Shown: one piece after another, positions 41,654 through 61,477 of the stretch
Layout of the letters: the number at the start of each line of letters is the position of its first letter
How positions within the stretch are numbered: the stretch's first letter is position 1
Origin: Bacteroides eggerthii
Lineage (GTDB): Bacteria > Bacteroidota > Bacteroidia > Bacteroidales > Bacteroidaceae
NCBI RefSeq assembly: GCF_025146565.1
Contig: NZ_CP102258.1
Coordinates: 1,334,001-1,398,000 of the forward strand
Direction: 5' to 3'
DNA length: 64,000 nt
Made by a program: the position numbers and the translations under genes
Notes under the pieces: model-generated
What the model was told of the DNA's origin: nothing
The model's input: the letters and a program-made list of their open reading frames with translations, nothing else
Databases searched by the model: none

Positions 41654-43132
41654 TTATTTACCTCCGTTTATCCATGTCTTTTCAGAATAGATATAAGAAC
41701 CGTCGCCATAGGCCTTTTTCACATTCGGATTGCCGATGACTGCGCTGTTGCCGTAGGGTAGACGTTCTGGGTAACGGTTGATACCGCTTTGGGCATTTCT
41801 CGGATTAGTCAGTATTACATACTCTTCACCCATTGCTTTCAAACGACGTAAGTCGTTGTAAGTTTCTACTTGTTCATCCAGTGCTTGTGCCACATACTTC
41901 TGTTCGAAAAGTTTTTGGAGTGTCGGTGCACCCAAAGACGATGCATAGGCTTTTGCTGTTGTTGCAGCAGCTGGCACAGTGGTTTCATCTCCAAACCAAG
42001 TCAGAATTTCCGTAACAGAAGCCTCTACTGCTTTTTGATACGCTGAGGTGGCGTCAACGTTTGAACGCAGCTGAACTTCTGCTTGAATAAAATAGAGTTC
42101 GGCTTTACTCATGATATGAATGGGTTGTGAACCGAACAAATACCACGTTGGCTGATATTTCATTACTCTGGCGTCATCTACTGTCTTAGCAATAGTTTCA
42201 TCTCCCGGAATATAAGCTTCTCCTAAAGCATTCAGATAATAATCTAAACGAGGGTCATCTGTAGCTTCCATCAGACTTGATACTGTCTTTGAAGGTGCTG
42301 TGTATTGACGGCTGAAAACATAGGCGCTCCATGGATTGTCGCATGTGGAACCATTAAATCCTGTAACCGTAAATCCTTCGAATCCATTGTCTATTGCTTG
42401 TTGTACGGATGTTGCTACTTCGGAAAGTACATTAGGTTCTACCGCCAGCTTATGTAACAGGTAGCGTGCTTTCAGAGCATGAGCGGCTGCCAGCCACTTA
42501 GATGCGGCCCCTTTGTAGGCAATGTCTTGGTTGCCGGCATTGGTCATACTTTTACCTTTTTCCAAGTTATCGATAGCCTTGTCGAGTGTAGCCAAAATGC
42601 CGGTATATACATCTTTCTGTGCATCTAATTTGGGTTGTAGGTTGCCTTGTCCTTGTACAGCTTCGCTATAAGGGATGTCGCCGAACATATCAGTCAGGAC
42701 ACCGAAGTTTACGGCTTCTAATATTTGTGCCATTCCCAGTATATCAAACTGTCCTACATTACCCGGTACCTCATTCTCTATTTTGCTCTGCATTTGGCGT
42801 ATATTCTGCAAGTTGCCATAGGTGGAGTTCCATACATTATTAAAGGTCGTAGAAGCTGCCCATTCGCTTGAGTTGCGCATTTCGGCAAACATTAATTGGT
42901 TGTTTCCCATACCTACCTCTTGTTCGTTGAGTGAGGAAAGATAAAAGGCGAAGTCGCCCGATACGGTACTGAAACCTGTGGACATAATAGCGTCTGTCAA
43001 TTGGAGTGCTGCTGGAACAGCTTCCGGTGACGGGTGTTCATTGTCCTTGTTGATACGGTCAAATGCATCTTCCGTACATGCTGTCAGGCCAAAGAGAACC
43101 ACCGTCAAAGTCATGAATATGTATTTTTTCAT
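41654..43132 (-). CDS. SusD/RagB-family outer-membrane lipoprotein, cassette A
   Basis: About 492 aa from the ATG at 43132 (MKKYIFMTLTVVLFGLTAC, lipoprotein signal with Cys19; another ATG lies 6 nt upstream). It has SusD-type helical repeats: AVPAALQLTDAIMSTGFSTVSGDFAFYLSSLNEQEVG, MAQILEAVNFGVLTDMFGDIPYSEA near 130, and the C-terminal KLFEQKYVAQALDEQVETYNDLRR and RLPYGNSAVIGNPNV. It belongs to the SusD-like_2 type and is similar in layout to the SusD of cassette C. It forms the lid on the SusC channel encoded 18 bp upstream. Because that SusC has no promoter or signal peptide in this orientation, this gene is probably silent too. Confidence 0.92.
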   Translation of the reverse strand: MKKYIFMTLTVVLFGLTACTEDAFDRINKDNEHPSPEAVPAALQLTDAIMSTGFSTVSGDFAFYLSSLNEQEVGMGNNQLMFAEMRNSSEWAASTTFNNVWNSTYGNLQNIRQMQSKIENEVPGNVGQFDILGMAQILEAVNFGVLTDMFGDIPYSEAVQGQGNLQPKLDAQKDVYTGILATLDKAIDNLEKGKSMTNAGNQDIAYKGAASKWLAAAHALKARYLLHKLAVEPNVLSEVATSVQQAIDNGFEGFTVTGFNGSTCDNPWSAYVFSRQYTAPSKTVSSLMEATDDPRLDYYLNALGEAYIPGDETIAKTVDDARVMKYQPTWYLFGSQPIHIMSKAELYFIQAEVQLRSNVDATSAYQKAVEASVTEILTWFGDETTVPAAATTAKAYASSLGAPTLQKLFEQKYVAQALDEQVETYNDLRRLKAMGEEYVILTNPRNAQSGINRYPERLPYGNSAVIGNPNVKKAYGDGSYIYSEKTWINGGK

Positions 43133-43156
43133 AATCAAAATCTTTATGTTGTATGT

Positions 43157-46100
43157 TTAGAAATTAATAGTAAGACCACCACCGAAGCTGGATGTATTAG
43201 GAACAGAGAATCGTTCGAAGTATCCGCTCATGTTGTTGTTACCTTGCGACGACTCTGGATCGAAGTTCGGCAAGTTGGCCCAAATAAGCACGTTACGGGC
43301 AAAACCGTAAATCGAAATGTCGAAGATGCCGAGTTTGGGCAATTGATAAGTTAATGTCAGGTCACGCAACTTGACGAAACTCGTATCATAAATACCGGAT
43401 TCGGTGATATTGTAATAAGCCTGATAGTAATCGGCCTTATTCACTTCAATTGTATTAGGCTGTCCTGTTACCTCATCTATACCTTCGGCAATCATACTTC
43501 CTTCGTGGTAGGGGAGCGATTCTTTGGTGGTACCGAAATAGTTCAATGTCATGTTTGTTCCATGATACATCTTTCCACCTTGTTGCCAACTCCATGTGGT
43601 AGAGAGTGAAAGACGTTTGTAGCGACCACCTAGTGTAAAACCGGTAGTGAAGTCGGGAGAACAGTTACCCAAATCTTGGCTATTGCCCGAAGATTGGGGC
43701 AGACCGTTTAATAACAGCAAGTTTCCAGCCTCATCGCGCTTGAAGCCCAAACCATATATATTCGGATAGGTACATCCTGCCTGGGCACGAACTTGCGGTT
43801 CAACGAACCCACCCAGCATAATGGATTCCACACCTGGAGCCAGCTCTATAACCTTGTTATTAACTTTCGTAAAGTTGATACCTAAATTTAGGTCGAAGTC
43901 TTTGGCTTGCAGAATAGCAGTATTAATAGAAAGTTCGTGAGCATGTGTACGCATCTTTCCAGCGTTTGTCAACATCTCCTGATAGCCTGTCGCTCCATCT
44001 ACGGGTACATAGAATATCTGATCTTCTACATTCTGTAAACTGTATGTGTATTCCACTTTCAAGCGACTACCGAAGAAGTGCAAGTCGGCACCTATTTCGT
44101 AGTTGGTTGTATTTTGTGGTTTCAATCCTTCATCATATACTCGGTAGTAGGGTCTGAAAGTAGATACTCCACTGGGAAGAGGGTAGGTAACCGGATAGTA
44201 AGAATACATACCTCCGCCGTAAGTCGGGGTGTAATAATAGTTGGCATAATAATTACCAGCCTGACCTACCTGTGCGAATGAAGCGCGGAGTTTACCGTAG
44301 TTCAATATTTTATTATTCTGCAAGAAAGGTAATTTGGTGAATTCCCAGCCTAATGATACCGAAGGATAGAAGAAGCTGCGACTACCGCGTGGCATGGTCG
44401 ACACATAGTCATTACGTCCGGTTACGGTCAGGTACACCTGATCTTGCCATGACATTGAAAGGCTTCCGAAAAAACCCACAGTACGTTCCTGTCGCTTATA
44501 CTCGCTGGATGTTAGTGAAGTAGCGTTTCCGATATTAGTAAAACCGGGGAAGTTAAAGTTACTGCCGTAATAATCCCAGTTACGGATGCTCTCATGATTG
44601 AATTCGTTACCTAATATTACGTTTAGTCTCCATTCGTCACTTTTACCGAATTTACCGTCAAAGTTAACTGTAAACAGGTTATTGAATACATTGTGCTGAG
44701 AACCGTAATTTTCTATATCTCCACCTTTCAATGATGATGTACTGCCCATTTCACGTATGGTGGCATAATCTGACGTCCAGATGTCAAGACCGGCCTGTTC
44801 TCTTATCTTGAGGGAGAAGTTCTCTCCTAAACCTAAATTTGGCTGATATTCCAAATAAGTATTGCCAAAAGCACGGTTGGTATGCTGAAGGTATTCGTTA
44901 TGTTCCGCCCACCAATAAGGATTGGTAAATGAAGTGGAACGGAATAATATCTGGTTCGTTGGATTTCCCGGTTCGTGATTGGGAATTCCTTTCAAATCAT
45001 ATTCGGCTGGGGCTGAATAAACTACATTCATGATACCATCGTTGGCACCAGGTGCGGAAGTGATTTTGGTAGATGAGTAGTTTATGGAGAATCCTGTATT
45101 CCACTGTGGATTGATTTTCCAGTCTACCAATCCACGTGCTCCCCAACGATCCATTCCTGTTGAAGGAATGATACCATTTTGGTGTGAATTGTTCACGCCG
45201 AAAGAATAGTTTATTCCGTTGATACTTTGTGACAGATTTACGTTGGTGTTTTCAGTAAATCCAGTGCCTAGGAAGTCTCCCACATTATCATAAATCTGTG
45301 GTGTTGTCCAGCCGCTCAAACCTGCTTGTGCACGCTTAGGGTTGTAATATTGTCCTTCGTGCATACCATCTGTCGCCGTATATTGGTTGTTCATGTTTCC
45401 ACCATATTTAGGGTCGTTGGCCAGTTCGCTGATTTTCGGTCCCCAAGTCATGGAAGAAGTCGGATCATATCCTGCGGTAATACTGTTACCTTGCGAATAT
45501 ATATTTTGGCGTTCGAATTTACGTGAAACTCGCTGTGCGCTCAGGTTTGTTGAAATCGTCACACTTGGCTTGTTCATATTGTTTTTGGAACCACGCTTGG
45601 TTGTGATCACAATTACGCCGTTGGATGCACGAATACCATACAATGCGGATGCTGCCTGTCCTTTCAGTACATTTACCGACTCTATATCTTCAGGATTGAT
45701 ATCGATGCTGCGATCGGCATAGTTGGCGCCTGTCACAGAATTTCCGGTATCAAAGTCGGCAGTTGTGTTTATCGGCATGCCATCTATTACATATAGCGGT
45801 TGGTTGTTGCCGTCGAACGAACGAGCACCACGAATTATAATCTGAGAAGAAGCGCCCGGTGCACCCGATGACTGACGGATGTCTACACCTGTCAGTTTAC
45901 CTTGTATCGCACTAGCAAGCGATGTCGTTCCTGCTTTGTTCAATTGTTCTGAATTCAAATCCTGTGCCGCATAACCCAATGCTTTACGGTCGCGTTTGAT
46001 ACCCATAGCAGTTACCACAACTTCATCAAGTTGTTCGGCATCTGATTTGAGTATTACTCTTACATTTGGTTTAATTGCAACTTCCTGTGTTTGCATACCA

Positions 46101-46186
46101 ACGAACGAAACACGCAAAGTCTTCGCAGAACTATCTAGTATGTAAATTGCTGTAGATGAATCATTTATAAATATTAATAAATTCAT
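43157..46186 (-). CDS. SusC/RagA-family TonB-linked transporter, silent cassette A (lacks its 5' end)
   Basis: A 1009-codon frame beginning MNLLIFINDSSTAIYILD, which is no signal peptide. True SusC similarity starts at [20 protein letters not shown], the last third of the CarboxypepD-like domain, then plug ([45 protein letters not shown] near 115; SVNVLKGQAASALYGIRASNGVIVI near 175) and barrel to the terminal Phe (FGGGLTINF). Signal peptide and the first about 70 residues are missing. The break is exactly at the 19-bp core shared with cassettes B and C (46115-46133) and is in frame with B. It therefore looks like a storage cassette that becomes active only after rearrangement, not a decayed pseudogene: the remaining frame is fully open. 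Confidence 0.9.
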   Translation of the reverse strand: MNLLIFINDSSTAIYILDSSAKTLRVSFVGMQTQEVAIKPNVRVILKSDAEQLDEVVVTAMGIKRDRKALGYAAQDLNSEQLNKAGTTSLASAIQGKLTGVDIRQSSGAPGASSQIIIRGARSFDGNNQPLYVIDGMPINTTADFDTGNSVTGANYADRSIDINPEDIESVNVLKGQAASALYGIRASNGVIVITTKRGSKNNMNKPSVTISTNLSAQRVSRKFERQNIYSQGNSITAGYDPTSSMTWGPKISELANDPKYGGNMNNQYTATDGMHEGQYYNPKRAQAGLSGWTTPQIYDNVGDFLGTGFTENTNVNLSQSINGINYSFGVNNSHQNGIIPSTGMDRWGARGLVDWKINPQWNTGFSINYSSTKITSAPGANDGIMNVVYSAPAEYDLKGIPNHEPGNPTNQILFRSTSFTNPYWWAEHNEYLQHTNRAFGNTYLEYQPNLGLGENFSLKIREQAGLDIWTSDYATIREMGSTSSLKGGDIENYGSQHNVFNNLFTVNFDGKFGKSDEWRLNVILGNEFNHESIRNWDYYGSNFNFPGFTNIGNATSLTSSEYKRQERTVGFFGSLSMSWQDQVYLTVTGRNDYVSTMPRGSRSFFYPSVSLGWEFTKLPFLQNNKILNYGKLRASFAQVGQAGNYYANYYYTPTYGGGMYSYYPVTYPLPSGVSTFRPYYRVYDEGLKPQNTTNYEIGADLHFFGSRLKVEYTYSLQNVEDQIFYVPVDGATGYQEMLTNAGKMRTHAHELSINTAILQAKDFDLNLGINFTKVNNKVIELAPGVESIMLGGFVEPQVRAQAGCTYPNIYGLGFKRDEAGNLLLLNGLPQSSGNSQDLGNCSPDFTTGFTLGGRYKRLSLSTTWSWQQGGKMYHGTNMTLNYFGTTKESLPYHEGSMIAEGIDEVTGQPNTIEVNKADYYQAYYNITESGIYDTSFVKLRDLTLTYQLPKLGIFDISIYGFARNVLIWANLPNFDPESSQGNNNMSGYFERFSVPNTSSFGGGLTINF
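46115..46133 (-). other. shufflon recombination core, site A
   Basis: The 19-bp AGTTCTGCGAAGACTTTGC on the minus strand. From here into the gene, 53 bp are identical to site C. Upstream of it the three loci share nothing. Confidence 0.85.
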
Positions 46187-46533
46187 GCTATTTGCCTAAA
46201 ACGTCAATAGGGCATATTCTAGTAAGTATTTACAAAATCGCTAAGTTACTCGTGTGTTACCACTTCTATAATTAAAACTCTAGTTTTTAATATGTTATGT
46301 ATATTGATAACTCATATTATAATTATCAAAATATACCTTAGTCTTTCACTGAACCATTTTTGTAAATAAAAAGCAATACAAGCAATGGTGGTTAGCAAAA
46401 AAGAAACATACCATGATAAAAGCTGTAAACTAAGATTTATGTCAAAATAAAATACGCCATATTACAAAAAAAAATATTATGAACGCATCATTATAATAAG
46501 ATTATAATTATCTTTGTATAAAACATGTAATCT
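46187..46533. promoter_or_regulatory. AT-rich gap before the AAA ATPase gene, with its -7 box
   Basis: Very AT-rich, no gene seen. TATCTTTG (46509-46516) is a TAnnTTTG box 17 nt before the ATPase start; no TTG at -33. On the minus strand nothing resembles a promoter for susC cassette A. Confidence 0.45.
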
Positions 46534-47661: not shown

Positions 47662-47784
47662 CGAAACCTATATGCAGAGATAATCCCGAAACAAAGATAC
47701 AGTACGCACTGTAAGAAAAACAATAAGGCATCTAATTTACAATGAAGAAGTCAGGATTCACTGAGAACTCTCTCGTTATAATAC

Positions 47785-49192
47785 ACCTATGCGGAGACGT
47801 AAAATAAACTGTGTCATGCGGCGTTTTCTTCCAAGCTCATCGGTCGGGGATCGGCCAGCGCCAAGGGGGTGCACCAGCACTCCCGACGAGCGTAAAGTTA
47901 CAACAATTTAAATCTGTCTCCAAACTTTATCGCTAATTGTTGTGCGATGGCCGCCCAGTTGGCTATGGGCATGGTCCATTTCTTGCGTATGTTGCGGTAA
48001 GCGAGATAAACCAACTTTTCAAGGGCGGTGTCGTTAGGGAACACGCCCTTGTTTTTTGTCACTTTCCGCACTTGGCGGTGATAGCCCTCGACTGTATTCG
48101 TGGTATAAATCATACGTCGTATATCCGACGTAAACTGGAAGTATTCAGTAAGCCTTTCCCAGTTATCCTGCCAAGACTTGATAACGATAGGGTATTTCTC
48201 ACCCCATTTTTCTTCCAGATTAAAAAGTCCTGTCTCAGCGGATTCCTTATTTACCGCACCATAGACATGTTTCAGATCCCTCATGAACTCTTTTTGGTGC
48301 TTGCTGCCGACATACTTGATGGAGTTACGTATCTGATGGACAATACAGAGCTGGACAATAGTATCAGGAAACACACTTTGGATAGCGTCTGGGAAGCCTT
48401 TCAATCCGTCAACACAAGCTATGAGTATGTCACAGACACCACGGGTCTGCAAGTCTGTCAATACATTCAGCCAGAAGTTCGCGCCCTCATTCTTAGAGAT
48501 ATACATCCCTAACAGATCCTTATGTCCCTCGCTGTCCAGAGCCAGTACATTGTAAATCGCACGGGTTACGGCACAGCCTCTCTCGTCCATTACCTTATAA
48601 TGGATGGCATCCATCCAGACTATCGGATAAACGCTGTCCAGGCTACGGGAACGCCATGCCTTTATTTCCGGAAGTACACGATCGGTGATGGCGCTAATTG
48701 TCTCAGCAGACACACGATTACCCAAGTTCTCCTCCATCCAGTCACTTATCTCACGTGTGCTGTTTCCCAAAGCATAAAGTCCGATGATACGGTCTGCAAC
48801 ACCTTCTGCAAGAATGGTTTCACGCTTTTTTATGAACTGGGGTTCAAAGGTGGAGTTACGGTCACGAGGGGTAGATACGGTGACTTCTCCCATCGAAGTC
48901 TGTACTTGTTTTTGCATCTTGCCATTACGACGGTTGCCACTCATGCGTTCATCCTCAGAAAGATGAGCGTCCATCTCACCTTCAAGGGCAGCATTTAATA
49001 TACTCTCCAACAACGGAGCAAAAGCACCGTCCTTACCTAACAAGGGTTTACCAGACTTCAACTGTTCAAGAGCCTTGTTCTTGATACTTTCAAAATCAAA
49101 TTCTTCACTCATAAAATAAACTGTGTTAGCAAAGTTAATATTTTATTCTTTTCCTTAGCTGACACAGTTCAAATTACGGACTCCACCTATGC
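47785..49192. mobile_element. IS256-family insertion sequence with 8-bp target duplication
   Basis: The element itself is 47793-49184 (1392 bp). Its ends are imperfect inverted repeats: left GGAGACGTAAAAT with ACTGTGTCA inside, right (reverse complement) GGAGTCCGTAATTT with ACTGTGTCA inside. It is flanked by a perfect direct repeat ACCTATGC at 47785-47792 and 49185-49192, the duplicated target. One full-length transposase is inside. The perfect duplication means a simple insertion that has not recombined since, hence probably fairly recent. Confidence 0.95.
47898..49112 (-). CDS. IS256-family (mutator-type) transposase
   Basis: 404 aa, full length for the family. N-terminal SGKPLLGKDGAFAPLLESILNAALEGEMDAHLSEDE, then catalytic region with YPIVWMDAIHYKVMDERG (Asp), LLGMYISKNEGANFWLNVLTDLQTRGVCDILIACVDGLKGFPDAI (second Asp) and TTNTVEGYHRQVRKVTKNKGVFPND (Glu). 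No frameshift or stop, so it may be active. Confidence 0.96.
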   Translation of the reverse strand: MSEEFDFESIKNKALEQLKSGKPLLGKDGAFAPLLESILNAALEGEMDAHLSEDERMSGNRRNGKMQKQVQTSMGEVTVSTPRDRNSTFEPQFIKKRETILAEGVADRIIGLYALGNSTREISDWMEENLGNRVSAETISAITDRVLPEIKAWRSRSLDSVYPIVWMDAIHYKVMDERGCAVTRAIYNVLALDSEGHKDLLGMYISKNEGANFWLNVLTDLQTRGVCDILIACVDGLKGFPDAIQSVFPDTIVQLCIVHQIRNSIKYVGSKHQKEFMRDLKHVYGAVNKESAETGLFNLEEKWGEKYPIVIKSWQDNWERLTEYFQFTSDIRRMIYTTNTVEGYHRQVRKVTKNKGVFPNDTALEKLVYLAYRNIRKKWTMPIANWAAIAQQLAIKFGDRFKLL

Positions 49193-49205
49193 TGGGTGAA
49201 TAAAT

Positions 49206-49263: not shown

Positions 49264-50472
49264 TTATTCTAAAATATCTCCTCTAAGTAAAGGATTGGCT
49301 GCTATTGATTCTTTTGGGAAAGGCATCAAATAGGTTTCTCCTTCCATTTTCTGATCTCTCCATCTAACAAACTCCAAAGCAAGCTCCAAACGTCTTTCTT
49401 CTTTTAAAGTTAATGATGATTTTCTTTTTGCTTGGAATTCCGTTAAACGATTTGAGTTTCCAGCTTCGGCAGAAATCAGATACATTTCCGGTAATCTGGA
49501 TACATAAAATTCAGAATCCCAGTTTTCCGTATTTTTATACTTGGCGCTACTAGGAAAAACATAACCTTTACGATCTGCTGCTTCGTCCAACTCATACAGA
49601 ATCTTACGTGTGTCATTGCCTTTTAATAAGGCAACAACCTCATCGGCAACAGCCAAACAGTTCCAGTTTCGGGCTTCCCAGCTCATAATGTATCCCCAAC
49701 CTGCATTAGATGTGGCACTTGTTAAAGTTGCAAAGTACATAATAACTTCTTTATCTTTCTCTGCGGGATTGTCAGAAAGACTAAACTTTCCGCTTGTAAT
49801 CAAACTCTCAGCTTCCTGTCCTGCAAGGTCTAAACGTCCCTGCATTCTATATACTCTGGCTAACAAAGCCTGAGCCGCTTCTTTGGTCGGTTTAGTATTC
49901 GCTTCCGGAGTATTAGTGTTGAATTCCGGGGCATGCGCTTTAGCGTCCAATAAGTCTGAGACTATAAATTCCATTACCTTTTTCTCTGAAGAACGTTGAA
50001 TCGGTTGCTTGTCATAGTTTTCGTCAATAATGGGAACGGCACCATATAAATCAATTAAGCGAATATAATTATAAGCACGACAATATTTCGCAATTGCTTT
50101 CTGTGACTCTGAAGCTGAAGGAACTCCCAAAATAGTGTTGGCCCTGTAAATACCTTTGTACAAGTCCGGATAATTGTAATAGTTCAAAATATCATCTTCC
50201 AAAATTTCATGATTATAAGCATCCTGAATTTGAAAGAATTGCGGATTAACTAATTTAAGATTATCCGACAAATATTCAGGGTACATGTTTGTACAATAAC
50301 TATAATTGTTGGAGTTGACTATAGCAGCATATAAACCATTCAATAATTTGTCAACATCTTCAGTCTTTAATTCCTGATTGGCGTCCAAAGACATCTGGGA
50401 ATCTATATCAAGCATGTTGCTACAACCGGATAGGCACCACATGCTTAAAAGTATATATATGTATTTTTTCAT
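49264..50472 (-). CDS. SusD/RagB-family outer-membrane lipoprotein, cassette B (active partner)
   Basis: 402 aa, shorter than the partners of A and C (about 490). Lipoprotein signal MKKYIYILLSMWCLSGC with Cys17. SusD-type repeats: DVDKLLNGLYAAIVNSNNYSYC, YRANTILGVPSASESQKAIAKYCRAYNYIRLIDLYGAVPIIDE near 110, PTKEAAQALLARVYRMQGRLDLAGQEA near 190, and the C-terminal LKEERRLELALEFVRWRDQKMEGE. Different subfamily from A and C, so a different ligand is likely. It follows the only susC that has a promoter and signal peptide, hence it is the expressed partner in this orientation. Confidence 0.93.
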   Translation of the reverse strand: MKKYIYILLSMWCLSGCSNMLDIDSQMSLDANQELKTEDVDKLLNGLYAAIVNSNNYSYCTNMYPEYLSDNLKLVNPQFFQIQDAYNHEILEDDILNYYNYPDLYKGIYRANTILGVPSASESQKAIAKYCRAYNYIRLIDLYGAVPIIDENYDKQPIQRSSEKKVMEFIVSDLLDAKAHAPEFNTNTPEANTKPTKEAAQALLARVYRMQGRLDLAGQEAESLITSGKFSLSDNPAEKDKEVIMYFATLTSATSNAGWGYIMSWEARNWNCLAVADEVVALLKGNDTRKILYELDEAADRKGYVFPSSAKYKNTENWDSEFYVSRLPEMYLISAEAGNSNRLTEFQAKRKSSLTLKEERRLELALEFVRWRDQKMEGETYLMPFPKESIAANPLLRGDILE

Positions 50473-50490
50473 ATCAATGTCTGTTATAAA

Positions 50491-53400
50491 TTAAAATGCA
50501 ATATTCACACCAAAAATAAAACTTCTCATATTGGGTATTCCGGCATTATCAGTACCAGCAACCACCTTATTATTTGTTCTATCTGGATCAACATATTGAA
50601 GTTCCGGATCAAGCCCTGAATATTTGGTGAAGGTGAAGGGATTTCTTATTTGGATATATGCTCTTACTGTTTCCATGAATGGGATATTCAGATGTTGGAA
50701 ATTGTATCCCAACGTAATATCTGAGATACGGAGATAATCCGCATCTTCCAAGAAACGTGAAGAACGTTGTGTATTCCAAGTCGTAATCGAAGAATTCAGA
50801 TTCAAGCGCGGGACATCTGTATTGGTATGCTCCGGCGTCCATCTGTCAAGGATTTCAGTTACCATGTTGTTTGAATAAGAAGGATAACCGCCACCGCCAC
50901 CATTCATTTGACCGTTACCGCCTTCTTTATACATGGTATATATCTTTTTGCCTATAGAATATTGTGCTTGAATATTCAAGTCAAATCCTTTATAGTTAAC
51001 TGTTGTACCGAGGCCGCCATAGATGGGGGCAATACCGCCTGAGAAAATCTGTGCATCAGCAGAGTTGATAAGTCCGTCGCCATTAATATCTTCATATAGC
51101 ATGTCACCAGGTTGTACAACTTTTGTTACCTTACCTTCGGCATTTTTGTATTCTGTTTTTTCCTGTGCAACACCTAATGCTTTGATTAACTGATAAGAGC
51201 CAAGCGCTTCTCCTTCTTTCACGATAGAGACAAAACCTGTATTATAATAATCTTTTGTCGGGTCACCCAAATCGAGAACTTTGTTCTTATTGTAAGAGAA
51301 GTTAGCATTGAAACTCCAGGTTATATCTTTGTTTCTGATAATATCAGCACTAAGATCCAATTCTATACCACTATTTCTGATGCTACCCATATTGGCTGTC
51401 ATAGTTCTGAATCCTGATTCTGTTGCTACAGGAGTGGCATATAGTAAGTCTTGCGTTTTTTTGTTATAATAGTTGGCTGAGAAGTTAATTCGATTATTGA
51501 AAAAAGCCATATCTATACCGAAGTTGGTTGCCAATCCTTTTTCCCAAGTCAAGTTTTTATTAAAAAGAGATGCGGCCGCTAATCCCGGTAGACCATTGTA
51601 ATTATAGTTTGAACCAGAATTGAGTAAGTTTTGACCGGAAGCATTTCCAATGCCACTTTGGTTGCCCGTTTGACCATATGAAGCTCTTATCTTCAATAAG
51701 TTCATAACACTTTTATTCCAGAAAGCTTCATTGGAGATAGTCCATCCTCCGGAAACAGCAAAAAATGTTCCCCATCTGTTATCTTTAAGAAATTTAGATG
51801 AACCATCTCTACGGATAGAGAACATTAAATTGTATTTATCATCCCAGTTAAGTTGAATACGTCCAAAATATGATTCCAAAGCATTGGCAGTGTATAATGA
51901 ACCACCGTCAGTAATCTTTCCTGCAGAATCTAACCATTTAAGTGAAGTAGAGGGGAAATCCTGGCCATATACACTTGACTCTTCTTCCTCAAACTTTTGG
52001 AATGAATGTCCGATTAGAACAGTATAAAAGAGTTTGTCTAATATATTATTTGAATAAGTTAATGTATTCTCTATAATATAGTCAGAGAACATTTCTGTTC
52101 CATAATATCCGCTACCATTCAAGCTTTCTCCTCTTTTAGTATCCGCCGAATCATATCTGTTGTATCTTCTTGAATTTATGTTTCCACCTATAGAAGCATG
52201 CCAAACCAGGCCCTTAATAATAGTCCAGTCAAAATATGCCGTACCACCCAAGCGATAGCGTTTATCAGTAACATCCCTTTCAAATGCATGCAAAGGATTT
52301 GTAAATGTACCAATATAAGGTTTTCCGTCTTCATCCAAAGCTGGTGCATCGGGACGTGCATTAAATGAGGCAGCCCAAGGCTGGTATATATCATTATCCT
52401 CTACTAAAGGTGTAGATACTGAAGACGAGAAATATGATTTAATACCAATCTTAAAATTGTCGAAAACCTTATGGTCCAAGTTTAATTTTATTGTTGAGCG
52501 TTTGAACTCATCTTTTTTTACTACACCTTCTTGGTTGAAATGTGAAGCTCCTACATAAAACTTGGTTTTCTGTCCACCACCAGATATACCTAACTGATAA
52601 TTTTGCATTAAAGCATTTTTATTTCTGATTTCACCAAACCAGTCCGTACCTTCTGCCGTCAATGGCTCAAAAGGAGTTAATACAGATTCATCTTTAGGTT
52701 TGCTTAAATACCCATTGGCAATATCATCTAAATAGTTTTGACGTGCCTCATTTAATATTTCAGCATATTCCTTGGCATTTAGCATTTTAGGTGTTTTTAC
52801 AGGATTTTGGATTCCAACACTAACGTTTAAGGTTACTTGAGTCTTCTGCGCAAAAGAACCGGATTTCGTTGTAATCAAAATGACACCATTGGAAGCTCTA
52901 GAACCATAGATGGCGGTTGATGCTGCATCCTTTAAAATTTCCACGCTTTCTATATCACTGGGAGAGATGGAGGCAAAAGAAACTCCCGGAACTCCATCAA
53001 TGACATACAATACGTCATTTGACGCACTTAATGAGCCATTTCCACGTAAACTGATTTGCGTTTCATCACCAGCACGTCCTGATGTACTTACAACTTGCAA
53101 ACCACTTACTTTGCCCTGAAGTGCTTGGCTTATGTTGACAGCTGGTATTTTAACAATTTCATCAGCTTTCACAGAAGATATAGCTCCGGTCAATTCAGAC
53201 TTTTTTACAGTACCATATCCCACCACCATTACTTCATCAAGAACTTCAGAGTCTGTTTTTAATACGACTCGCAAATTAGGTTTTATTGCAACTTCCTGTG
53301 TTTGCATACCAATATACGAAATTTGCAAAGTCTTCGCAGAACTTGGTACGTTCAGTAAAGTAAAATCACCATCTACATTGGTAATAGCACCAATTTGTGT

Positions 53401-53544
53401 ACCTTTTACCAATACAGAGGCTCCAATAACTGGCTGCCCATCTTCTTCAGAAATCACAACACCTGTAACCTTCTGTGTTTGGGCAGTTACTAGGCCTATT
53501 CCTACAAAAAGGCAGGCCAATAACAGCATTAATTTTCTTTTCAT
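50491..53544 (-). CDS. SusC/RagA-family TonB-linked transporter, cassette B (complete, in the ON position)
   Basis: 1017 aa. Signal peptide MKRKLMLLLACLFVGIGLVTAQ, CarboxypepD_reg-like domain about 25-110 (QKVTGVVISEEDGQPVIGASVLVKGT; GDFTLLNVPSSAKTLQISYIGMQTQEV), plug about 115-225 (DEVMVVGYGTVKKSELTGAISSV; LRGNGSLSASNDVLYVIDGVPG; VEILKDAASTAIYGSRASNGVILI), and barrel ending in FIFGVNIAF. It imports a nutrient together with SusD B. The recombination core (53325-53343) lies inside the codons for SSAKTL at about residues 68-73, so everything before it, promoter included, is exchangeable and everything after is cassette-specific. Confidence 0.95.
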   Translation of the reverse strand: MKRKLMLLLACLFVGIGLVTAQTQKVTGVVISEEDGQPVIGASVLVKGTQIGAITNVDGDFTLLNVPSSAKTLQISYIGMQTQEVAIKPNLRVVLKTDSEVLDEVMVVGYGTVKKSELTGAISSVKADEIVKIPAVNISQALQGKVSGLQVVSTSGRAGDETQISLRGNGSLSASNDVLYVIDGVPGVSFASISPSDIESVEILKDAASTAIYGSRASNGVILITTKSGSFAQKTQVTLNVSVGIQNPVKTPKMLNAKEYAEILNEARQNYLDDIANGYLSKPKDESVLTPFEPLTAEGTDWFGEIRNKNALMQNYQLGISGGGQKTKFYVGASHFNQEGVVKKDEFKRSTIKLNLDHKVFDNFKIGIKSYFSSSVSTPLVEDNDIYQPWAASFNARPDAPALDEDGKPYIGTFTNPLHAFERDVTDKRYRLGGTAYFDWTIIKGLVWHASIGGNINSRRYNRYDSADTKRGESLNGSGYYGTEMFSDYIIENTLTYSNNILDKLFYTVLIGHSFQKFEEEESSVYGQDFPSTSLKWLDSAGKITDGGSLYTANALESYFGRIQLNWDDKYNLMFSIRRDGSSKFLKDNRWGTFFAVSGGWTISNEAFWNKSVMNLLKIRASYGQTGNQSGIGNASGQNLLNSGSNYNYNGLPGLAAASLFNKNLTWEKGLATNFGIDMAFFNNRINFSANYYNKKTQDLLYATPVATESGFRTMTANMGSIRNSGIELDLSADIIRNKDITWSFNANFSYNKNKVLDLGDPTKDYYNTGFVSIVKEGEALGSYQLIKALGVAQEKTEYKNAEGKVTKVVQPGDMLYEDINGDGLINSADAQIFSGGIAPIYGGLGTTVNYKGFDLNIQAQYSIGKKIYTMYKEGGNGQMNGGGGGYPSYSNNMVTEILDRWTPEHTNTDVPRLNLNSSITTWNTQRSSRFLEDADYLRISDITLGYNFQHLNIPFMETVRAYIQIRNPFTFTKYSGLDPELQYVDPDRTNNKVVAGTDNAGIPNMRSFIFGVNIAF
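53325..53343 (-). other. shufflon recombination core, site B
   Basis: AGTTCTGCGAAGACTTTGC on the minus strand, the same 19 bp as sites A and C. After 12 diverged positions it is followed by a second block identical in all three (53291-53312). Direct repeat with site A, inverted with site C. Confidence 0.88.
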
Positions 53545-53600
53545 AAATTCTCTCTTAAAGTTTAACTTTACATTAATTGTTTCTTTACTCTAACAAAATG

Positions 53601-53630
53601 CAAATATATTAATAAATATGAAACGGGCAA
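53601..53630 (-). promoter_or_regulatory. promoter of the active susC, within the invertible segment
   Basis: On the minus strand TTG (complement of 53628-53630), 19 nt, TATATTTG (complement of 53601-53608), a full fit to the Bacteroides consensus; leader about 50 nt. The rest of the gap 53545-53997 is AT-rich, with no gene and no good promoter seen for the recombinase. Confidence 0.8.
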
Positions 53631-53997
53631 CTATTTTATTGAAAAAAACTTGTAAATCTATCAATCTGTTAATGAAAATAGCGATTTTATGCTGAATAAC
53701 AGTTTTTGTATAATTAAAGAAGCTCAAAATAGTATTATTCGCTATCACTATGTTTCTGCTGTTTTAGCTAATTATTAATCTGAATACATGTATTTTAAAA
53801 CAAAATGGTTAAAAAATCGCCGGTATTGATGCGGTTTTACAGAATAATCAAAGACATCTTGTGTCTTTTTTGCAGCCTCTAAAGCTAGATTACAAAAAAA
53901 GAAATGCGACTTTTCACAGATATTAATCCTTGTTCAACTCTGGTTTTGCACAGAATATTGTCTTATTTGTTTATAGTATTAATTTAAACAGTTTGAA

Positions 53998-55155
53998 ATG
54001 AATAAAATTATTTACAATCTTGTGTACAACAGAAAGAAATGCCTGAATAAAAAAGGAATGGCATTAGTACAAGTCGAAGCTTATTTAGGCAGAAAGAAAA
54101 AGTATTTCTCAACCAAGGTCTATTTGAAACCGGAACAGTGGGATAACAAAAAGTTGATTGTTAAAAATCATCCTAATGCAGACGCTCTGAACAGGTTGAT
54201 TTATGAATTTGTTGCAACAATAGAAAAAAAGGAACTGGAATTATGGCAGCAAGGTAAGCGAATCTCTCTAGAGCTATTAAAAAACGCCTTAACTACACAG
54301 GAAAATAACTCTTCGTTTATATCCTTTTTCAGGCAAGAGGTTATGAACTCATCTTTGAAAGATAGTACTAAACGCAATCATCTTTCTACACTTATGCTGT
54401 TGCAAGAATTCAAAAAGAACATAACATTTTCAGATTTGACATTTGAGTTAATTTCGTCTTTCGAATACTTCCTACAATTGAAAGGGTATCATACCAACAC
54501 TATTGCCAAACACATGAAACATCTGAAACGGCATGTAAATATAGCTATAAACAAAGAATATATTGAAATACAGAAGTATGCTTTTAGAAAGTATAAAATA
54601 AAAACAATAGAAAACAAACACACCCATTTGGTGCCGGAAGAGTTGGAAAGACTGGAAAATCTGATTTTATCAGGCAGATATGTCAAGTTACAAAAGTCCT
54701 TGGATGCTTTCTTGTTCTGTTGTTATGCTGGAATGAGATATTCCGATTTTATTAATTTGTCTTCTGAAAATTTCGTAGATATCAATCAGGAAACATGGCT
54801 TATATACAAGTCTGTGAAGACAGGAACGGAAGTGCGCCTTCCTCTTTATCTGCTCTTCTCAGGAAAAGGAATTGCGATTCTTAATAAATATCGAGATAAT
54901 TTGGAAGATTTTTTTCATTTAAGAGATAACTCAAATGTCAATAAGGATTTGATAATTATCACAAGATTGGCAGGATTGTCAAAAAGGATATCCTTTCATA
55001 CCGCGCGCCATACCAATGCTACTTTACTCATATATAATGGTATAAATATTACTACAGTGCAAAAACTACTCGGACACAAAAGCGTAAAGACTACGCAGGT
55101 ATATACCAATGTAATGGATATGACTATTATTCATGATTTGGAGAAAATGAAGTAA
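53998..55155 (+). CDS. tyrosine site-specific recombinase, probable invertase of the SusC shufflon
   Basis: 385 aa. N-terminal Arm-type DNA-binding domain ([34 protein letters not shown]; about 1-90), SAM-like core-binding domain (about 100-195, [22 protein letters not shown]), and catalytic domain with the full residue set: Arg in [13 protein letters not shown], Lys in [13 protein letters not shown], His-x-x-Arg in [13 protein letters not shown], His in [10 protein letters not shown], and nucleophile Tyr in TQVYTNV. It is of the Bacteroides integrase group that inverts DNA for surface-antigen phase variation. It is encoded inside the segment it is predicted to invert, divergent from susC B. 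Confidence 0.93.
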
Positions 55156-55748
55156 GCAACTACTATCGCTGGGAAAAAGGTGGATATGTAGCATTGAAAC
55201 CAATAGTTTCATCGGTCGAAACGATGAGCTTCCCATATTAAAACAAACTGTTCATTACTGTGAACTAATACTTTATCTTATTTTGTAAATAAAATAAGAT
55301 ACTGTATCTGTTTAGTCACACGATACACAGCGTGATAGATATTTGTAAAGATATTTATCTACCACGTCTATCTATCACGCTTTAATGTATTTATAATCAG
55401 ATTTATAGCCCCTGCAATGTGATAGCATGACAGATGTTTTTCGTTTTTGAACTAATAGAAGAAGTCCGTTTGGATTCAATTATAAAAGAGAGACTTCATG
55501 AGTATCAATGCTTTTTACTTACAAAAATATTTCAAAAAAGTGATGAGTATACTTATAATGTGATTGTTTTTCAGCAACCATTTATGTAAAACACTAATTA
55601 TCAATGGAAATTACAAGCTATAAGTAGCATTTTAGTAATATAGTTACATTATCAGATACGACTAAAACAATATCTATCGATACCTTTATTCTGAACAAAT
55701 ACTTTATTACCGATTGTAAATTGTTTATTTTAAATTATTTGCATCTGA
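55156..55748. other. 593-bp non-coding stretch after the recombinase, inside the invertible segment
   Basis: No credible gene. A perfect 13-bp inverted repeat, AGCGTGATAGATA (55329-55341) with TATCTATCACGCT (55369-55381), spans 53 nt and could be the recombinase terminator or a protein-binding site. No TAnnTTTG promoter pointing into susC C was found, which fits C being silent. After inversion this stretch would lie in front of whichever cassette is off. Confidence 0.6.
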
Positions 55749-58700
55749 GTGAGTTCTGCGAAGACTTTGCGTGTTTCGTTCGTTGGTATGCAAACACAGG
55801 AAGTGGCAATAAAACCTAATCTGCGAGTGGTGTTAAAGTCTGATGCAGAGGTGCTTGATGAAGTTGTTGTGACGGCAATGGGGATCAAACGTGCAGAAAA
55901 GGCATTGGGCTATTCTGCAACTTCTGTAAATAGTGAACGTATAACAGAGACACGTACTTCTGATATTATGTCTAGTTTATCTGGCAAAATTGCGGGTGTA
56001 CAAATTTCTAATACTTCTTCCGATCCGGGAGCTTCTAATTCTGTAATTATTCGTGGTGTTAGTTCTTTGTCTGGAAGCAACCAACCGTTGTATGTAGTAG
56101 ATGGAGTGCCTTTGAATAATTCTGCTGTATATTCTACGGATGGTTTGAATAGTGGCTATGACTTTGGTAACGGTGCAAATGCTGTAAATCCGGATGATGT
56201 GGAAAGCATGACGATCTTGAAAGGTGCTGCGGCAACAGCTCTTTATGGTAGTCGTGCTGCTAGTGGAGTTGTCATGATTACTACTAAAACCGGGAAAAAA
56301 AATAAGGGTTTGGGTATTGAGTATAATGGTGGTTTACAGTGGTCTACTATCTTACGTTTGCCCGAATTTCAGAACGAATTTGGTATGGGCTGGAATGGAG
56401 ATCATACAGAACTTGAGAATGGTTCATGGGGACCTCGTTTTGACGGTTCTATGCAACTTTGGGGTAACAAATATGAAAACTCTCAAAAGCTGAAACCCTA
56501 TTCTCCGATAAAAAATAATATAAAAGATTTTTTTGATGCTGGTTTTCGCTATAATAATAGTGTTTCATTTAATGGGGCTACTGATAAGAGTGAATATTAT
56601 GTGTCTTTTTCTCAGATTAGCGATGATGGTATGATTCCTACTGATGCAGACAGTTATGACAAATATACATTCTCTGCTCGCGGTAGTCATAAAGTGAAAG
56701 CTCTAACTTTTTCTTCTTCATTGAACTATTCTTATCAGAAGAATAAATTTGCAACTACTGGTCAGGGACTTACTATGCTGAACTCTTTGTATCAGACTCC
56801 ACGTGATGTTAGCATCATTAGTTTGCAGGATCAGAATGATATATTTAATTCACCTGGATATTTTTATACTCCTTATGGTGTAATGAATCCATATTATATA
56901 TTGGAGAACTACTTGAATGAGTATGATGCTGAACGCTTTTATGGAAAATTCCAGGTTGATTATGACTTCTTGAAATACTTCAAGTTTACATATCGTATGG
57001 GTCTGGATACAACAACTGGGCAAAGCAATAGAGGTGAGCCTAATTTATATGCTTTGTTCTACGAAGGTACTCCGAATGGTGAAGGAATGGGCTCCAATAG
57101 TCCGTTCTATGGTAAAGAAGGTAGCTATAGTCAGCAGATAAGCCGTCGCCGCGAAATCAATCAGGATCTTTTGTTAAGTTTCAGTATGCCGATCAATGAT
57201 TTTCAAATCAATGCATTGGCTGGTTTCAATGGGAATGAAAGGAAATATAGTTATTTATATTCCAGTGTAAGCAAGTTAACGATTCCTACTTGGTATAATT
57301 TGAGTAATTCTGCTGCTACTCCAACGGTTGAGCAATATCTTTCATTGAGACGTTTGATGGGTGTGTTTGGGCAAGTAGATCTTTCTTGGAGAAATATGCT
57401 GTATGTTACGTTGACTGCCCGCAATGACTGGTCGTCTACTCTTCCTAAAGAAAACCGTAGTTTCTTCTATCCAGGAGTTACCGGTAGCTTTATCTTTACA
57501 GAGTTGTTGGATGAAGATATGAAAGATATTTTGTCATTTGGTAAAGTTCGTATGGCTTGGGGTAAAACAGGTAATGATGCGAATGTATATATGACGAAGC
57601 CTGTTTATGGACAATCTTCAAACAGAATACCTTTTGGATCTTTGAACTTTCCACTGGGTGGAGTAAATGCTTTTTCTGCTGGAAATATCTTGGGGAGTAA
57701 TTCATTGAGCCCTGAAATGACAACGGAATTTGAGGTTGGTTTGAATATGGCATTTTTCCATAACCGTATTTCTTTTGATGCAGCTTATTATAATAGAAAT
57801 TCAGATAAGCAGATTTTCTCATTATCAATGGATCCATCTTCTGGTTATACAGCACAGAATATGAACTTGGGTAAAGTAAGAAATCGTGGCGTTGAATTAT
57901 TGGTAAGTGCTACTCCGATACAAACACGTGATTTCAGCTGGATGGTAAGTTGGAACTTTACGAAGAACTGGAGCAAGGTGATCAGTTTGCCGGAAGAACT
58001 AGGAGGACAGACTGTTATATATGGTTTGAATGGTGGAACAAGTATGTATGCAATCACAGGTGAGCCGGTAGGAGTTTTCAAAGCGGAAGTTCCTAAGCGC
58101 GATCCGGAAGGGCACATTGTAGTTAATGCGGCTAATGGTCTTCCTGTTGCAGCCAAAGAGTTTGCCATTTGCGGAAACATGAACTATGATTATCAAATGG
58201 GAGTATCAACTACGCTGAAGTATAAAGGAGTAAGTCTGAGTGCAGATTTGGATATCCGTCAAGGTGGTGTGATGTATTCTCGTACTAAGGATATTAACTA
58301 TTTTACAGGTAATGCTATTCAGACAGCATATAATGATCGTAATACGATGATTGTCCCAAATTCAGTGAATGAAATTATTAATGCAGACGGTACTATTAGC
58401 TATGTGGAAAATACTACTCCTATTTCTAGTGCTAATATGCAGGCTGGTAATCCTGGCACTTTCTGGGGAAATGGCGGATTCGATATGGGTAGTTACAGTT
58501 TGATCGACAAGTCTTATATAAAATTACGTTCAATAGCCTTGAGTTGGGAACTTCCGAATAAATGGTTAGCAAATACTCCTTTCCAGGCTGTTAGATTATC
58601 AGCTTTTGGTAATAACCTATTCTTGTGGACACCATCAGACAATACATTCGTAGATCCGGAAATGTCTTCATTTGGTAATGATTTGGAAGGACAGTATGGT

Positions 58701-58760
58701 GAATATACAGCGAACCCAAGTTCTCGTCGATTTGGTTTCAACGTAATGGTTAAATTTTAA
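55749..58760 (+). CDS. SusC/RagA-family TonB-linked transporter, silent cassette C (lacks its 5' end)
   Basis: A 1003-codon frame that begins with a GTG just before the shared core, giving [22 protein letters not shown] at once; there is no signal peptide. Plug ([70 protein letters not shown]) and barrel are complete to the C-terminal [10 protein letters not shown]. Like cassette A it lacks promoter, export signal and the first two thirds of the CarboxypepD-like domain. Fusion at the core with the 5' end of cassette B would restore a normal SusC of about 1070 aa. Susd and two lipoproteins follow. By resemblance to a known B. thetaiotaomicron locus (BT2261-2264) its ligand may be a peptide; this is recalled, not searched. 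Confidence 0.9.
55752..55770 (+). other. shufflon recombination core, site C
   Basis: AGTTCTGCGAAGACTTTGC on the plus strand; with the following bases 53 bp identical to site A (to 55804). Inverted relative to sites A and B. Confidence 0.88.
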
Positions 58761-58773
58761 TAGAGGAATGAAG

Positions 58774-60249
58774 ATGAAAAAAATACTATTAACTATTTCT
58801 ACAGCAGCGTTTATGTTTGTTGGCTGCGATTTGGATATTAATGATAATCCGAACTATCCACAAGATGATCAGGTAACTCCAGACCTTATATTTCCTGCTA
58901 TTCAGGGGAGTATTGCTGCAACTGTGGGTGGTGAAATCTACAATTATGCCGGTTTCTTTTCTCAGTATTTTGAACAGATGCCTGAGGCAAATCAGTATAA
59001 TCAGTTAGCTACTTATACTTTTACGGAGAGTTCGCAAGAAATGGATTATTCTTATCGTATTATATATGCAGGAGCTTTGGAAGATGCTCAGCAGGTATTG
59101 AATAAGAGTAAAAATACAGCGGATCGTTTTGCTACAACAGTGTTGCGTGCTTATATTTTCCAAGTATTGGTGGATAATATGGGGGCATGTCCTTATACAG
59201 AGGCTTTGCAAGGAAATGCAAATGCTACTCCGAAATGGGATGATGGCGAGACTGTGTATAAAGGAATTTTAGCAGAATTGGATGCGGCAGAGCAGGAGTT
59301 GGACAATTCGAAAATGGAATCACCTGATTTGGTTTGTGATCAGGATATGGATCAATGGGTCGGTTTTGCCAATGCTTTACGTTTGCGCATGTATCTGCGC
59401 TTTATAGATGCTGGTATTGATGCTGCTGCATATACAGAAAAAGTGAAGGCTTTAGTGCAAGCAGGTAATTTCTTTACAGGAGATATTAAGTTTGATGCGT
59501 TTAAGGATGACGAGAATTATCGTAACCCTTGGTACACCACTAGTACATCTAATACAGGTAACCATTGTGCTGCTTATCCTCTTGTTTCTTATTTGAAATC
59601 TACTAATGACCCTCGTATTGCTTATGGTATGAATAAGGCTACTGGCGCAAAAGATTTTGTAGGAGCTATTCCGGGGAGTCATGATGTTGCTAAAAATAAG
59701 AATGCGGATGTTAGCGCAATCAATGTGACAATTGCAAAGATAAAGCCTGTTTATTTTTTTACACAGAGTGAACTTCAATTTTTGATAGCAGAAGTGAAGT
59801 TGCGTTTTCTGAATGATGATGCCGCAGCGAAGATAGCTTATGAGGCAGCTATTACAGCTGACTTTGCGGCTCGTGATATGGCAGGTCAGGAAACTGCAAT
59901 GTTCGGTACTGGAGGAGCTGTTGCTTGGGGCAATGCAACTTCAAATGAGGACAAGCTTGAACTCATTTATATGCAAAAATGGGTTGCTCTTTTCTACATG
60001 GATCATATAGAAGCATGGAGCGAGATTCGCCGTACAGACTGTCCTAAACTGTCATCACATACAGCGGAAGAAATATCCAAGAACTCTTTGCTTTATACTC
60101 CGGGTGAACTGATCACTCCTTGGATCAGTGGTTTGGAATCCGGTGGACTGATTAAGCGGATGTTTTATCCTCTGTCTGCTCGCCAATATAATGCTAATAC
60201 ACCTGCGGCAGTACCTGCAAGTACGCCCATTTGGTGGGATGTGAAATAA
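58774..60249 (+). CDS. SusD/RagB-family outer-membrane lipoprotein, cassette C
   Basis: About 491 aa from the second ATG ([18 protein letters not shown], lipoprotein signal; an ATG 6 nt earlier is possible). SusD-type helices: [37 protein letters not shown], then [36 protein letters not shown] near 125, and C-terminal [28 protein letters not shown] and [16 protein letters not shown]. Same subfamily as cassette A's SusD. The gap to susC C is about 10 bp. Expected silent in the present orientation. Confidence 0.93.
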
Positions 60250-60278
60250 AAAGTAAATAGTATAATATAAGTAAGAAT

Positions 60279-60962
60279 ATGAAAAAAATTATATATAGTA
60301 TATTGATATGCTTTGGAACTGTAGTTTTATCTTCGTGTGAAGATACTTCGGAAGATATTTCCAAAGTGACGCATTTTGCATCTTTAGAGTTGAAAGGTGA
60401 GACGGCTATGAAGATGAAACTGAACGATACATATGTAGAACCGGGCTTCATTGCATTGGAAGGTGATGAGGATATTACATCTAAAGTAAAGATTGCAGGA
60501 GCTGTAAATAGTGCGAAGAGTGATATCTATACATTAACATATTCTGTTGCTAATGTTGATGGGTTTTCAGTTTCAAAGAAGCGTAATGTTTTGGTTGCTG
60601 CACCTACTTTTGCCAGTGCCTATTATGGAGAATCAGAACTTGGCAGCCGCCACTATGTAAATGCTCCAATTCATATTGTAGATAATGGCGACGGTACTTA
60701 TGGAATCGATGATATTATGGGTGGATTTCAATTCCATGGCCTGAATGCCGGTTTGGAACCGGCCTACGATCTCCATGCAGAGGCCGTTATTAAGTTAGAA
60801 GCTGATAATAGTATATCACTAGTCAGTTTAGGCTCTTGGGCGCCGGAACTTAAGCTTACTCTTGGATTGAATAGCGGTAGCTATGATCCGGTAACAGGTG
60901 TGATAGAATTGAATGTTAAATATGGTGCAAATAACCAGCTTTCGGTTACATTGACCAAATAA
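60279..60962 (+). CDS. surface lipoprotein with an Ig-like (DUF5011/5012-type) domain, cassette C
   Basis: 227 aa. Lipoprotein signal (MKKIIYSILICFGTVVLSSC, lipid on Cys20) followed by the acidic stretch EDTSEDIS that favours surface export in Bacteroides. Then an Ig-like unit with the typical LNDTYVEPGFIALEGDEDITSKVKIAGAVNSAKSDIYTLTYSVANVDGFSVSKKRNVLV (about 45-105), and a C-terminal beta domain (YYGESELGSRHYVNAPIHIVDNGDGTYGIDDIMGGFQF...). Third gene of cassette C; likely an accessory subunit of the SusCD complex. Confidence 0.85.
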   Translation: MKKIIYSILICFGTVVLSSCEDTSEDISKVTHFASLELKGETAMKMKLNDTYVEPGFIALEGDEDITSKVKIAGAVNSAKSDIYTLTYSVANVDGFSVSKKRNVLVAAPTFASAYYGESELGSRHYVNAPIHIVDNGDGTYGIDDIMGGFQFHGLNAGLEPAYDLHAEAVIKLEADNSISLVSLGSWAPELKLTLGLNSGSYDPVTGVIELNVKYGANNQLSVTLTK

Positions 60963-60973
60963 ATAATTGAATT

Positions 60974-61477
60974 ATGAAAAAATATATAGCATTATTGTTA
61001 TTAGTAACAGTCTCATTCGCGTTTACTGCATGTGACGATGAAACAGAACCAGGTGGAACTGCCGTTGAAAAAATGGCAGGCACTTGGATTGTAACTTGGG
61101 AAGCAAAGAATGAGGCAGGAAAGTGGGAAGATATTTTGGGTGGTACCGTTGAATTAAACACCTATAATACGGCTGCTAATGTTCCGACAGAAATGTGGGT
61201 GAAAGAGGGCTATCTTTTGAATTCTGCTATTAAGGTGTCTACGGATTATAACGCACGTACGTTCAGTGCAACTGGGCAAACGATTGCTGTAGCTCCTGAA
61301 ATTTGGGGAGATTCTAAGATCGTTGTAGATGTTACTGATGGGAAAGTCTTGGCTGGTGCAGCTACTACTCCAAGTGGTATGCCGGCAGATAGTATTGTTT
61401 TCTTTGTAAATGTGCAAGGTGATGATACTTATAAAATTGCAGGTTTTCGCCGTACAGGATTTCCTGCTGACGAGTAA
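60974..61477 (+). CDS. small lipid-binding-type lipoprotein, cassette C
   Basis: 167 aa. Lipoprotein signal (MKKYIALLLLVTVSFAFTAC, lipid on Cys20) followed by DDETEPGG. A lipocalin-like start (AVEKMAGTWIVTWEAKNEAGKWEDILGG) and beta-rich remainder. I believe it matches the 'lipid-binding putative hydrolase' family (PF12888) often found beside susCD genes. 11 bp after the preceding gene; last gene of cassette C, followed by a terminator. Confidence 0.85.
   Translation: MKKYIALLLLVTVSFAFTACDDETEPGGTAVEKMAGTWIVTWEAKNEAGKWEDILGGTVELNTYNTAANVPTEMWVKEGYLLNSAIKVSTDYNARTFSATGQTIAVAPEIWGDSKIVVDVTDGKVLAGAATTPSGMPADSIVFFVNVQGDDTYKIAGFRRTGFPADE

Follow-up and report, generated by a model that had tools for sequence, protein, structure and literature searches.

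A probable SusC/SusD shufflon in Bacteroides eggerthii with one movable head and a candidate accessory element at its silent sites

A 64,000-nucleotide stretch of the Bacteroides eggerthii genome (contig NZ_CP102258.1, positions 1,334,001 to 1,398,000; hereafter the window) contains three susC genes, referred to here as A, B and C, together with a tyrosine recombinase gene. Only B has a complete 5' end, or head, while A and C are headless bodies. This locus is very probably a SusC/SusD shufflon, in which the local recombinase moves the single head among the three bodies.

The three genes share a 19-bp core, AGTTCTGCGAAGACTTTGC, which occurs at three places in the window when up to three mismatches are allowed (0.01 expected), and as three exact copies in the 4,206,509-bp genome, all of them at these sites (control 0). 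Each copy falls within a susC gene, with SSAKTL read across it in the same frame. The copies in A and B are on the minus strand and that in C is on the plus strand, with 2.4 kb between sites B and C and 9.6-9.7 kb between A and C. Past the core, the bodies are open over 991 (A), 950 (B) and 1002 (C) codons. An earlier reading of the same DNA, the original prediction, had proposed a common core at the same codons, direct orientation of A and B with C inverted to both, these inversion distances, and full-length open frames in A and C; all of this was recovered. The bodies belong to the SusC/RagA family and each is followed by its own SusD. They are predicted to be different importers, with 31% identity between A and C over 1051 columns, and best alignments of 44% over 200 residues for A and B and 28% over 337 for B and C.

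B is joined to a head of 201 nt that stops exactly at the core. The consensus of Bacteroides promoters is TTG-N18-22-TAnnTTTG, and a match lies upstream of B on the minus strand, with none in the 400 bp upstream of the A core or the C core. In the one arrangement read for the window, the promoter sequence is joined to a single pair, B. Among the sites of this family, 55 of 62 headed upstreams match the consensus, as do none of 75 silent upstreams (1.75 expected from shuffles). A search of the head peptide against its own genome gave 45 matches at E<=1e-8, among which only A and C start as late as residue 61 or 67, and are therefore headless. In C, a TGA lies two codons upstream of the core; A has merely an 18-codon extension there, in which no signal peptide was recognised by eye. 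The earlier claim that B alone has a promoter, a signal peptide and a full N-terminus is consistent with these results. Head and body A, or head and body C, join in frame in silico, and the join restores the full CarbopepD_reg_2 domain: positions 1-88 of 88 are matched by the first 252 residues of head plus A (77.8 bits) and the first 253 of head plus C (75.4 bits). By comparison, A alone matches positions 41-88 only, at 21.4 bits and under the cut-off of 32.2, and C alone gives no match at E<=1e-3.

A and C could instead be decayed paralogues that have lost their 5' ends, with the core as leftover homology and nothing moving across it. Their lack of a promoter match and of a start region would fit such decay, as would the single order seen in the window strain. 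Against this, both bodies have stayed open over their full length, the layout of one head and several bodies recurs in relatives, and both orders are found in the assembly of one relative, G022. Decay is barely credible on this evidence.

G022 has a contig of 5,196,111 bp whose ends overlap each other by about 31 kb. The overlap consists of three blocks (14,044, 9,160 and 7,979 bp) with 99.76-99.98% identity, the middle one being inverted between the copies. This 9.16-kb inversion is bounded by a headed site and a silent site; in the two copies the head sits on different bodies, and the former body has acquired a silent upstream. The simplest reading is that both arrangements were present in the sequenced culture.

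The left limit of the exchange in G022 is the first base of AGTTC. Across 56 loci with at least two sites, 113 within-locus site pairs are identical at core positions 1-10, with a single difference at position 0. Because the sites were found by a protein pattern, only the synonymous positions 5 and 8 are informative. Both vary between loci (among 68 silent sites, position 5 is C in 28, G in 3 and T in 37, and position 8 is A in 17 and G in 51) and never differ within a locus, suggesting that identity in AGTTCNGCNAA is required, or maintained by exchange, as for a strand-exchange region. Within-locus differences at the third positions 11, 14, 17 and 20 number 21, 14, 12 and 30 of 113 pairs. Identical codons amount to 93.0% within and 62.0% between loci over the first six codons, and to 54.2% and 41.5% over codons 21-32; this within-locus excess may partly reflect shared ancestry.

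These patterns also bear on whether general homologous recombination across the similar stretch past the core, instead of the adjacent enzyme, moves the head. The identical stretch at the G022 exchange is about 127 bp, and the activity of the enzyme is a prediction from sequence, both of which leave some room for this explanation. It is nevertheless very unlikely, given that synonymous differences set in from core position 11 with none at 5 or 8, and that 66 of 76 pieces of genome surveyed, all of which were picked by recombinase match, have the head next to the recombinase.

That survey covered the genus. The recombinase was matched at E<=1e-60 in 95 of 158 same-genus genomes, its own included, some of the matches being partial or containing stops. 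The 76 pieces comprise the window and 75 pieces of at most 20 kb from 74 other genomes, and represent 75 of the 95 genomes with a match; among the relatives that have names are B. clarus, B. propionicigenes, B. gallinarum, B. fluxus, B. muris and B. cutis. Wherever the head is present it is divergent from the recombinase (66 of 66), with a gap of 449-458 bp in 57 pieces and of 400 to 1594 bp in the other nine. A regular expression for the site found at least one site in 66 of the 76 pieces and exactly one headed site in 60. From the recombinase to the next silent site, the distance ranges from 27 to 2713 bp (48 pieces, excluding distances of 3000 bp or more). In the 43 headed pieces that could be scored, the recombinase shares the strand of the flanking hflX or marC in 20 and lies on the opposite strand in 23. 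At 50% identity or more and over 40% coverage, body A was matched in one of the relatives' pieces, B in none and C in three, in pieces short enough that outer cassettes may be missed. Horizontal movement of cassette A was considered and is unneeded, as one and the same relative matches body A at 87% and the recombinase at 80% DNA identity.

Several observations weigh against the proposed shufflon or its generality. The window strain was read in one arrangement in one assembly, and inversion there is what we infer. The overlap in G022 could be an assembly fault, although an inversion between two sites would be unexpected of one. As the pieces were picked by recombinase, the presence of that gene beside the head is partly built in. 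By the regular expression, five pieces (L099, L104, L110, L111 and L112) have sites without a headed one, and one (L052) has two headed sites. Ten pieces have no site by this pattern: L042, with N masking after the head; L062, with other sequence after the head; L116, whose head has a variant motif; L092, with two susC-like genes that have other N-termini; and six lone recombinases without a local susC (L067, L069, L087, L091, L093 and L120). Each of these six adjoins marC, hflX or both, and that of L120 (genome G011) has an internal stop. In the lone-recombinase genomes, a degenerate core pattern found nothing in four of the six, one place in G014 and four in G156.

In the mechanism proposed for the shufflon, the recombinase would exchange strands between core sites within the susC genes. 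It has arm-binding, SAM-like and catalytic domains and, by eye, we take it to retain the catalytic motifs of the tyrosine recombinase family. The exchange would place the head, which contains the promoter, leader, signal peptide, 67 residues and most of CarbopepD_reg_2, on B, C or A; each body, once headed, would be trailed by its own SusD, and only the headed importer could be made and exported. Since head and recombinase lie back to back, a B-C inversion would flip them as one segment and put the head on C, and a subsequent A-C inversion would put it on A. Of the arrangements enumerated, four retain all DNA, with the head on B in two and on C and A in one each, and in two more the 7.2-kb B segment is lost. 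This comes close to the two-step scheme originally predicted. The single movable 5' end serving three bodies, also part of that prediction, is borne out by the anatomy of the locus, both orders in G022, the mixed flank orientations and the core positions fixed within loci. We infer activity of the switch in the window strain, the role of the enzyme, one-at-a-time expression and the substrates.

The earlier view that the loci are unrelated upstream of the core needs correcting for A and C, which both have TRTAAAT-N15-ATTTRCA at -37 to -9. This element recurs in relatives. Upstreams of silent sites were reduced from 88 to 75 with a 75% identity filter, excluding those with N runs. The consensus of integration host factor (IHF), WATCAANNNNTTR, peaks on these 75 at -23, with a mean of 4.87 of 9 against 3.36 across offsets (standard deviation 0.24, computed without the top eight offsets), and the reversed consensus peaks at -35 (5.04 against 3.38, standard deviation 0.26). 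Scores of 8 or 9 are reached by 13 sites at -23 and 10 at -24, with an average of 0.18 beyond the top five offsets. On 62 headed upstreams, which have a common coding sequence, the score peaks elsewhere, at -43, and no match of at least 8 was found among the offsets reported. A dyad centred on base -23 or -24 scores 0.498 (best of two) against 0.421 for permuted partners (standard deviation 0.015, 0/1000); a centre between bases, at -23.5, was rejected, with 0.257 observed against 0.343. A matrix of -37 to -10 built from 26 sites of the window's clade scores highest where expected in 22 of 49 other sites (chance about 1.5%). Reverse training gives 11 of 26, and headed sites 0 of 62. Silent sites thus appear to carry, 9-37 bp upstream, a dyad and IHF-like element that is absent from headed sites.

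Further out, between -60 and -42, 15 of 75 silent sites have AAGTTC, a repeat absent from all 17 control windows; the IHF-like bend would lie about midway between this repeat (near -53) and the core. The repeat is exact in only those 15 sites and was not seen at site A or site C of the window. A -58 to -38 matrix fails to tell the two kinds of site apart, with a rank under 5% for 27 of 49 and 18 of 26 silent sites and also for 31 of 62 headed ones.

Lambda Int and IntDOT use accessory parts of their recombination sites, and the architecture of lambda attL and attB and of the IntDOT sites offers a comparison. The window's family is like these systems in the arm-binding domain of its recombinase and in a putative IHF-like site that lies near the core in just one of the two kinds of partner. 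It differs in that its outer repeat resembles a core half-site and not a separate arm-type sequence. This analogy suggests unequal partners, with the headed site behaving like a bare attB and the silent sites like attL. The upstream dyad, with AAGTTC near -53 in some lineages, would help to assemble the recombination complex at silent sites and, being on the upstream side, would swap places with the head at each exchange. The upstream element is accordingly a candidate recombination accessory element. That the sites are unequal by design, favouring the pairing of a head with a silent site under control by the IHF/HU family, is a tentative proposal that we rate as somewhat less than probable. 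If it is true, one headed importer per cell would be kept, there would be an IHF/HU-family handle on a switch regarded as random, and unequal sites could explain the shift from BT2264 to BT2268 by immunoglobulin A (IgA) or mucus in B. thetaiotaomicron.

The main rival is silencing, in which the element would act as an operator, insulator or bend against stray transcription into headless bodies, with no part in recombination. Its presence on silent copies and absence from headed ones is what silencing would predict. Its fixed distance from the core, with the centre at -23 or -24, is less readily explained in this way, and accessory parts of this kind may be expected where the recombinase has an arm-binding domain. 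Silencing is a serious explanation, if a rather doubtful one. The published passages drawn on here from PMC5729914, PMC12548429, PMC10939037, PMC4747536, PMC8042965, PMC6080902, PMC11852207 and PMC12632263 make no mention of the silent-site element, for which no search by name was made. Nor do those passages mention the asymmetry between headed sites and silent ones, the constant length of the gap or the conservation of the leader.

Two further genes in the locus, an insertion sequence (IS) of the IS256 family and an ATPase gene, could be working parts of the switch. The ATPase gene is single-copy and lies 402-485 bp from a silent site in seven pieces (the window, L034, L036, L037, L097, L107 and L124). 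Matches to it at E<=1e-20 are found in only 14 of 76 pieces, window included, seven of which have the match elsewhere or without a scored site. The IS has seven near-identical copies in the genome, the present one included, plus one at 46%, and no match in the 75 relatives' pieces at 50% identity or more and over 40% coverage. On these two results the IS was rejected as a working part, and its insertion between A and B looks incidental. An active role for the pair is unlikely.

The 48-nt leader of the head has a mean column identity of 96.7% over 66 loci. This exceeds the values for the head's codon positions 1 and 2 (91.8 and 94.7%) and is far higher than that for position 3 (74.5%). The sequence GTAAAGTTAAACTTTAAGAGAGAA is unique in its own genome with three mismatches allowed, and Rfam gave no match at the gathering threshold in 41500-61600. 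The conservation of the leader may perhaps reflect post-transcriptional control. The gap between head and recombinase (53545-53997) keeps its length in relatives, though its middle is poorly conserved. An alignment that excluded gaps outside 400-520 bp kept 59, of which 56 are 448-454 bp. This constancy may point to a spacing constraint.

Two pieces have unusual arrangements of the head. L142 (G155:C1, about 1490457) contains a second head copy whose frame ends right past a core-like site. Another such site, inverted and about 360 bp away, faces it and reads into sequence resembling susC. This is possibly a small head switch in the off state. L052 (G048) has two inverted copies of the head-recombinase segment with 98.9-99.0% identity, next to an N gap, representing either a duplication or mixed states; as the scaffold arrangement is ambiguous, G048 was not used as evidence.

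Table 1. Features of the locus, with positions in the window.
Feature	Position	Strand	Remarks
Site A, core of headless body	46114..46132	-	core search of window and genome
Site B, core joined to head	53325..53343	-	core search of window and genome
Site C, core of headless body	55752..55770	+	core search of window and genome
Head: start codon, signal peptide (by eye), first 67 codons of SusC B; movable 5' end	53344..53544	-	
Leader of head, 48 nt	53545..53592	-	96.7% mean column identity, 66 loci
Promoter of head, Bacteroides-type, TTG-N19-TATATTTG	53601..53630	-	consensus match; kept in alignment of 59 gaps
Tyrosine recombinase (Arm-DNA-bind_5, Phage_int_SAM_5, Phage_integrase)	53998..55155	+	
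Dyad element, silent site A, -37 to -9, TATAAAT-N15-ATTTACA	46141..46169	-	
Dyad element, silent site C, -37 to -9, TGTAAAT-N15-ATTTGCA	55715..55743	+	
SusC body A, headless	43157..46132	-	
SusD of cassette A (SusD-like_2)	41654..43138	-	
SusC body B, currently joined to head; nearest solved relative 8aa4	50491..53343	-	
SusD of cassette B (SusD-like_3)	49264..50472	-	
SusC body C, headless, BT_2264 relative (PDB 5fq6)	55752..58760	+	
SusD of cassette C, BT_2263 relative	58768..60249	+	
Surface lipoprotein, BT_2262 relative	60279..60962	+	
Protein related to BT_2261 and 3h3i	60974..61477	+	
AAA-type ATPase, single copy in genome	46534..47661	+	adjoins silent site in several relatives
IS256-family transposase, between ATPase gene and cassette B	47898..49112	-	

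Rci is a shufflon invertase. In the R64 pilV shufflon (PMC11852207, in part), one constant part is likewise joined to alternatives by an invertase; R64 chooses C-terminal segments, whereas in the window an N-terminal head would move to whole bodies with their own susD. SusC/SusD shufflons are also in print for B. fragilis and B. thetaiotaomicron, so the present locus is of an already published kind. The original prediction had placed its interest in a three-way shufflon with an integrated recombinase and IS; this novelty was overstated, given the published multi-cassette systems with a recombinase and the apparently incidental IS.

In B. fragilis, passages of PMC4747536 and PMC11852207 attribute multiple inversions at SusC/SusD clusters to the Tsr0667 recombinase. 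A single enzyme acts there on three clusters and nine further regions (PMC4747536, in part), whereas the window's recombinase has three local exact cores only, a count that leaves room for diverged distant sites. At region EE, as described in part of PMC5729914, inversions put alternative ragA/susC-ragB/susD pairs behind one promoter, with three potential pairs in strain 638R and six genes in HMW615. The repeats there are described as overlapping the start codon, whereas the exchange in the window would fall 67 codons inside the gene.

In B. thetaiotaomicron, passages of PMC6080902 describe SusC/D pairs in opposite orientation, term BT2267 a B. fragilis invertase homologue, and give inversion as one possible explanation for the opposite expression of BT2264 and BT2268 under IgA. 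Cassette C is like part of this BT2261-BT2269 region (BT2264/BT2263, BT2267 and BT2268/BT2269, the last being MAFF) in all four of its proteins, which resemble those of the BT_2261-2264 complex of known structure: its SusC matches BT_2264 with 1868 bits, its SusD matches BT_2263 with 732 bits, and its two smaller proteins match BT_2262 and BT_2261. The window differs in having three bodies, of which A and B were compared with solved structures only; body A is related to BT_2264 more distantly. In the deposited structure the BT_2264 chain begins just past the core, and the B. thetaiotaomicron gene is probably also annotated without its head. Judged by its domains and its relatives in the genus, the window recombinase may belong to the Tsr0667/BT2267 line.

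In summary, across the pieces surveyed the head-recombinase pair is kept while the bodies change between species, which suggests that SusC head-swapping is a lasting feature across much of the genus, beyond B. fragilis and B. thetaiotaomicron. The core, the silent-site element and the leader offer small, concrete targets for asking whether the choice of importer in Bacteroides is random or controlled, with a bearing on nutrient use, possibly on phage receptors, and on the published IgA-MAFF effect.

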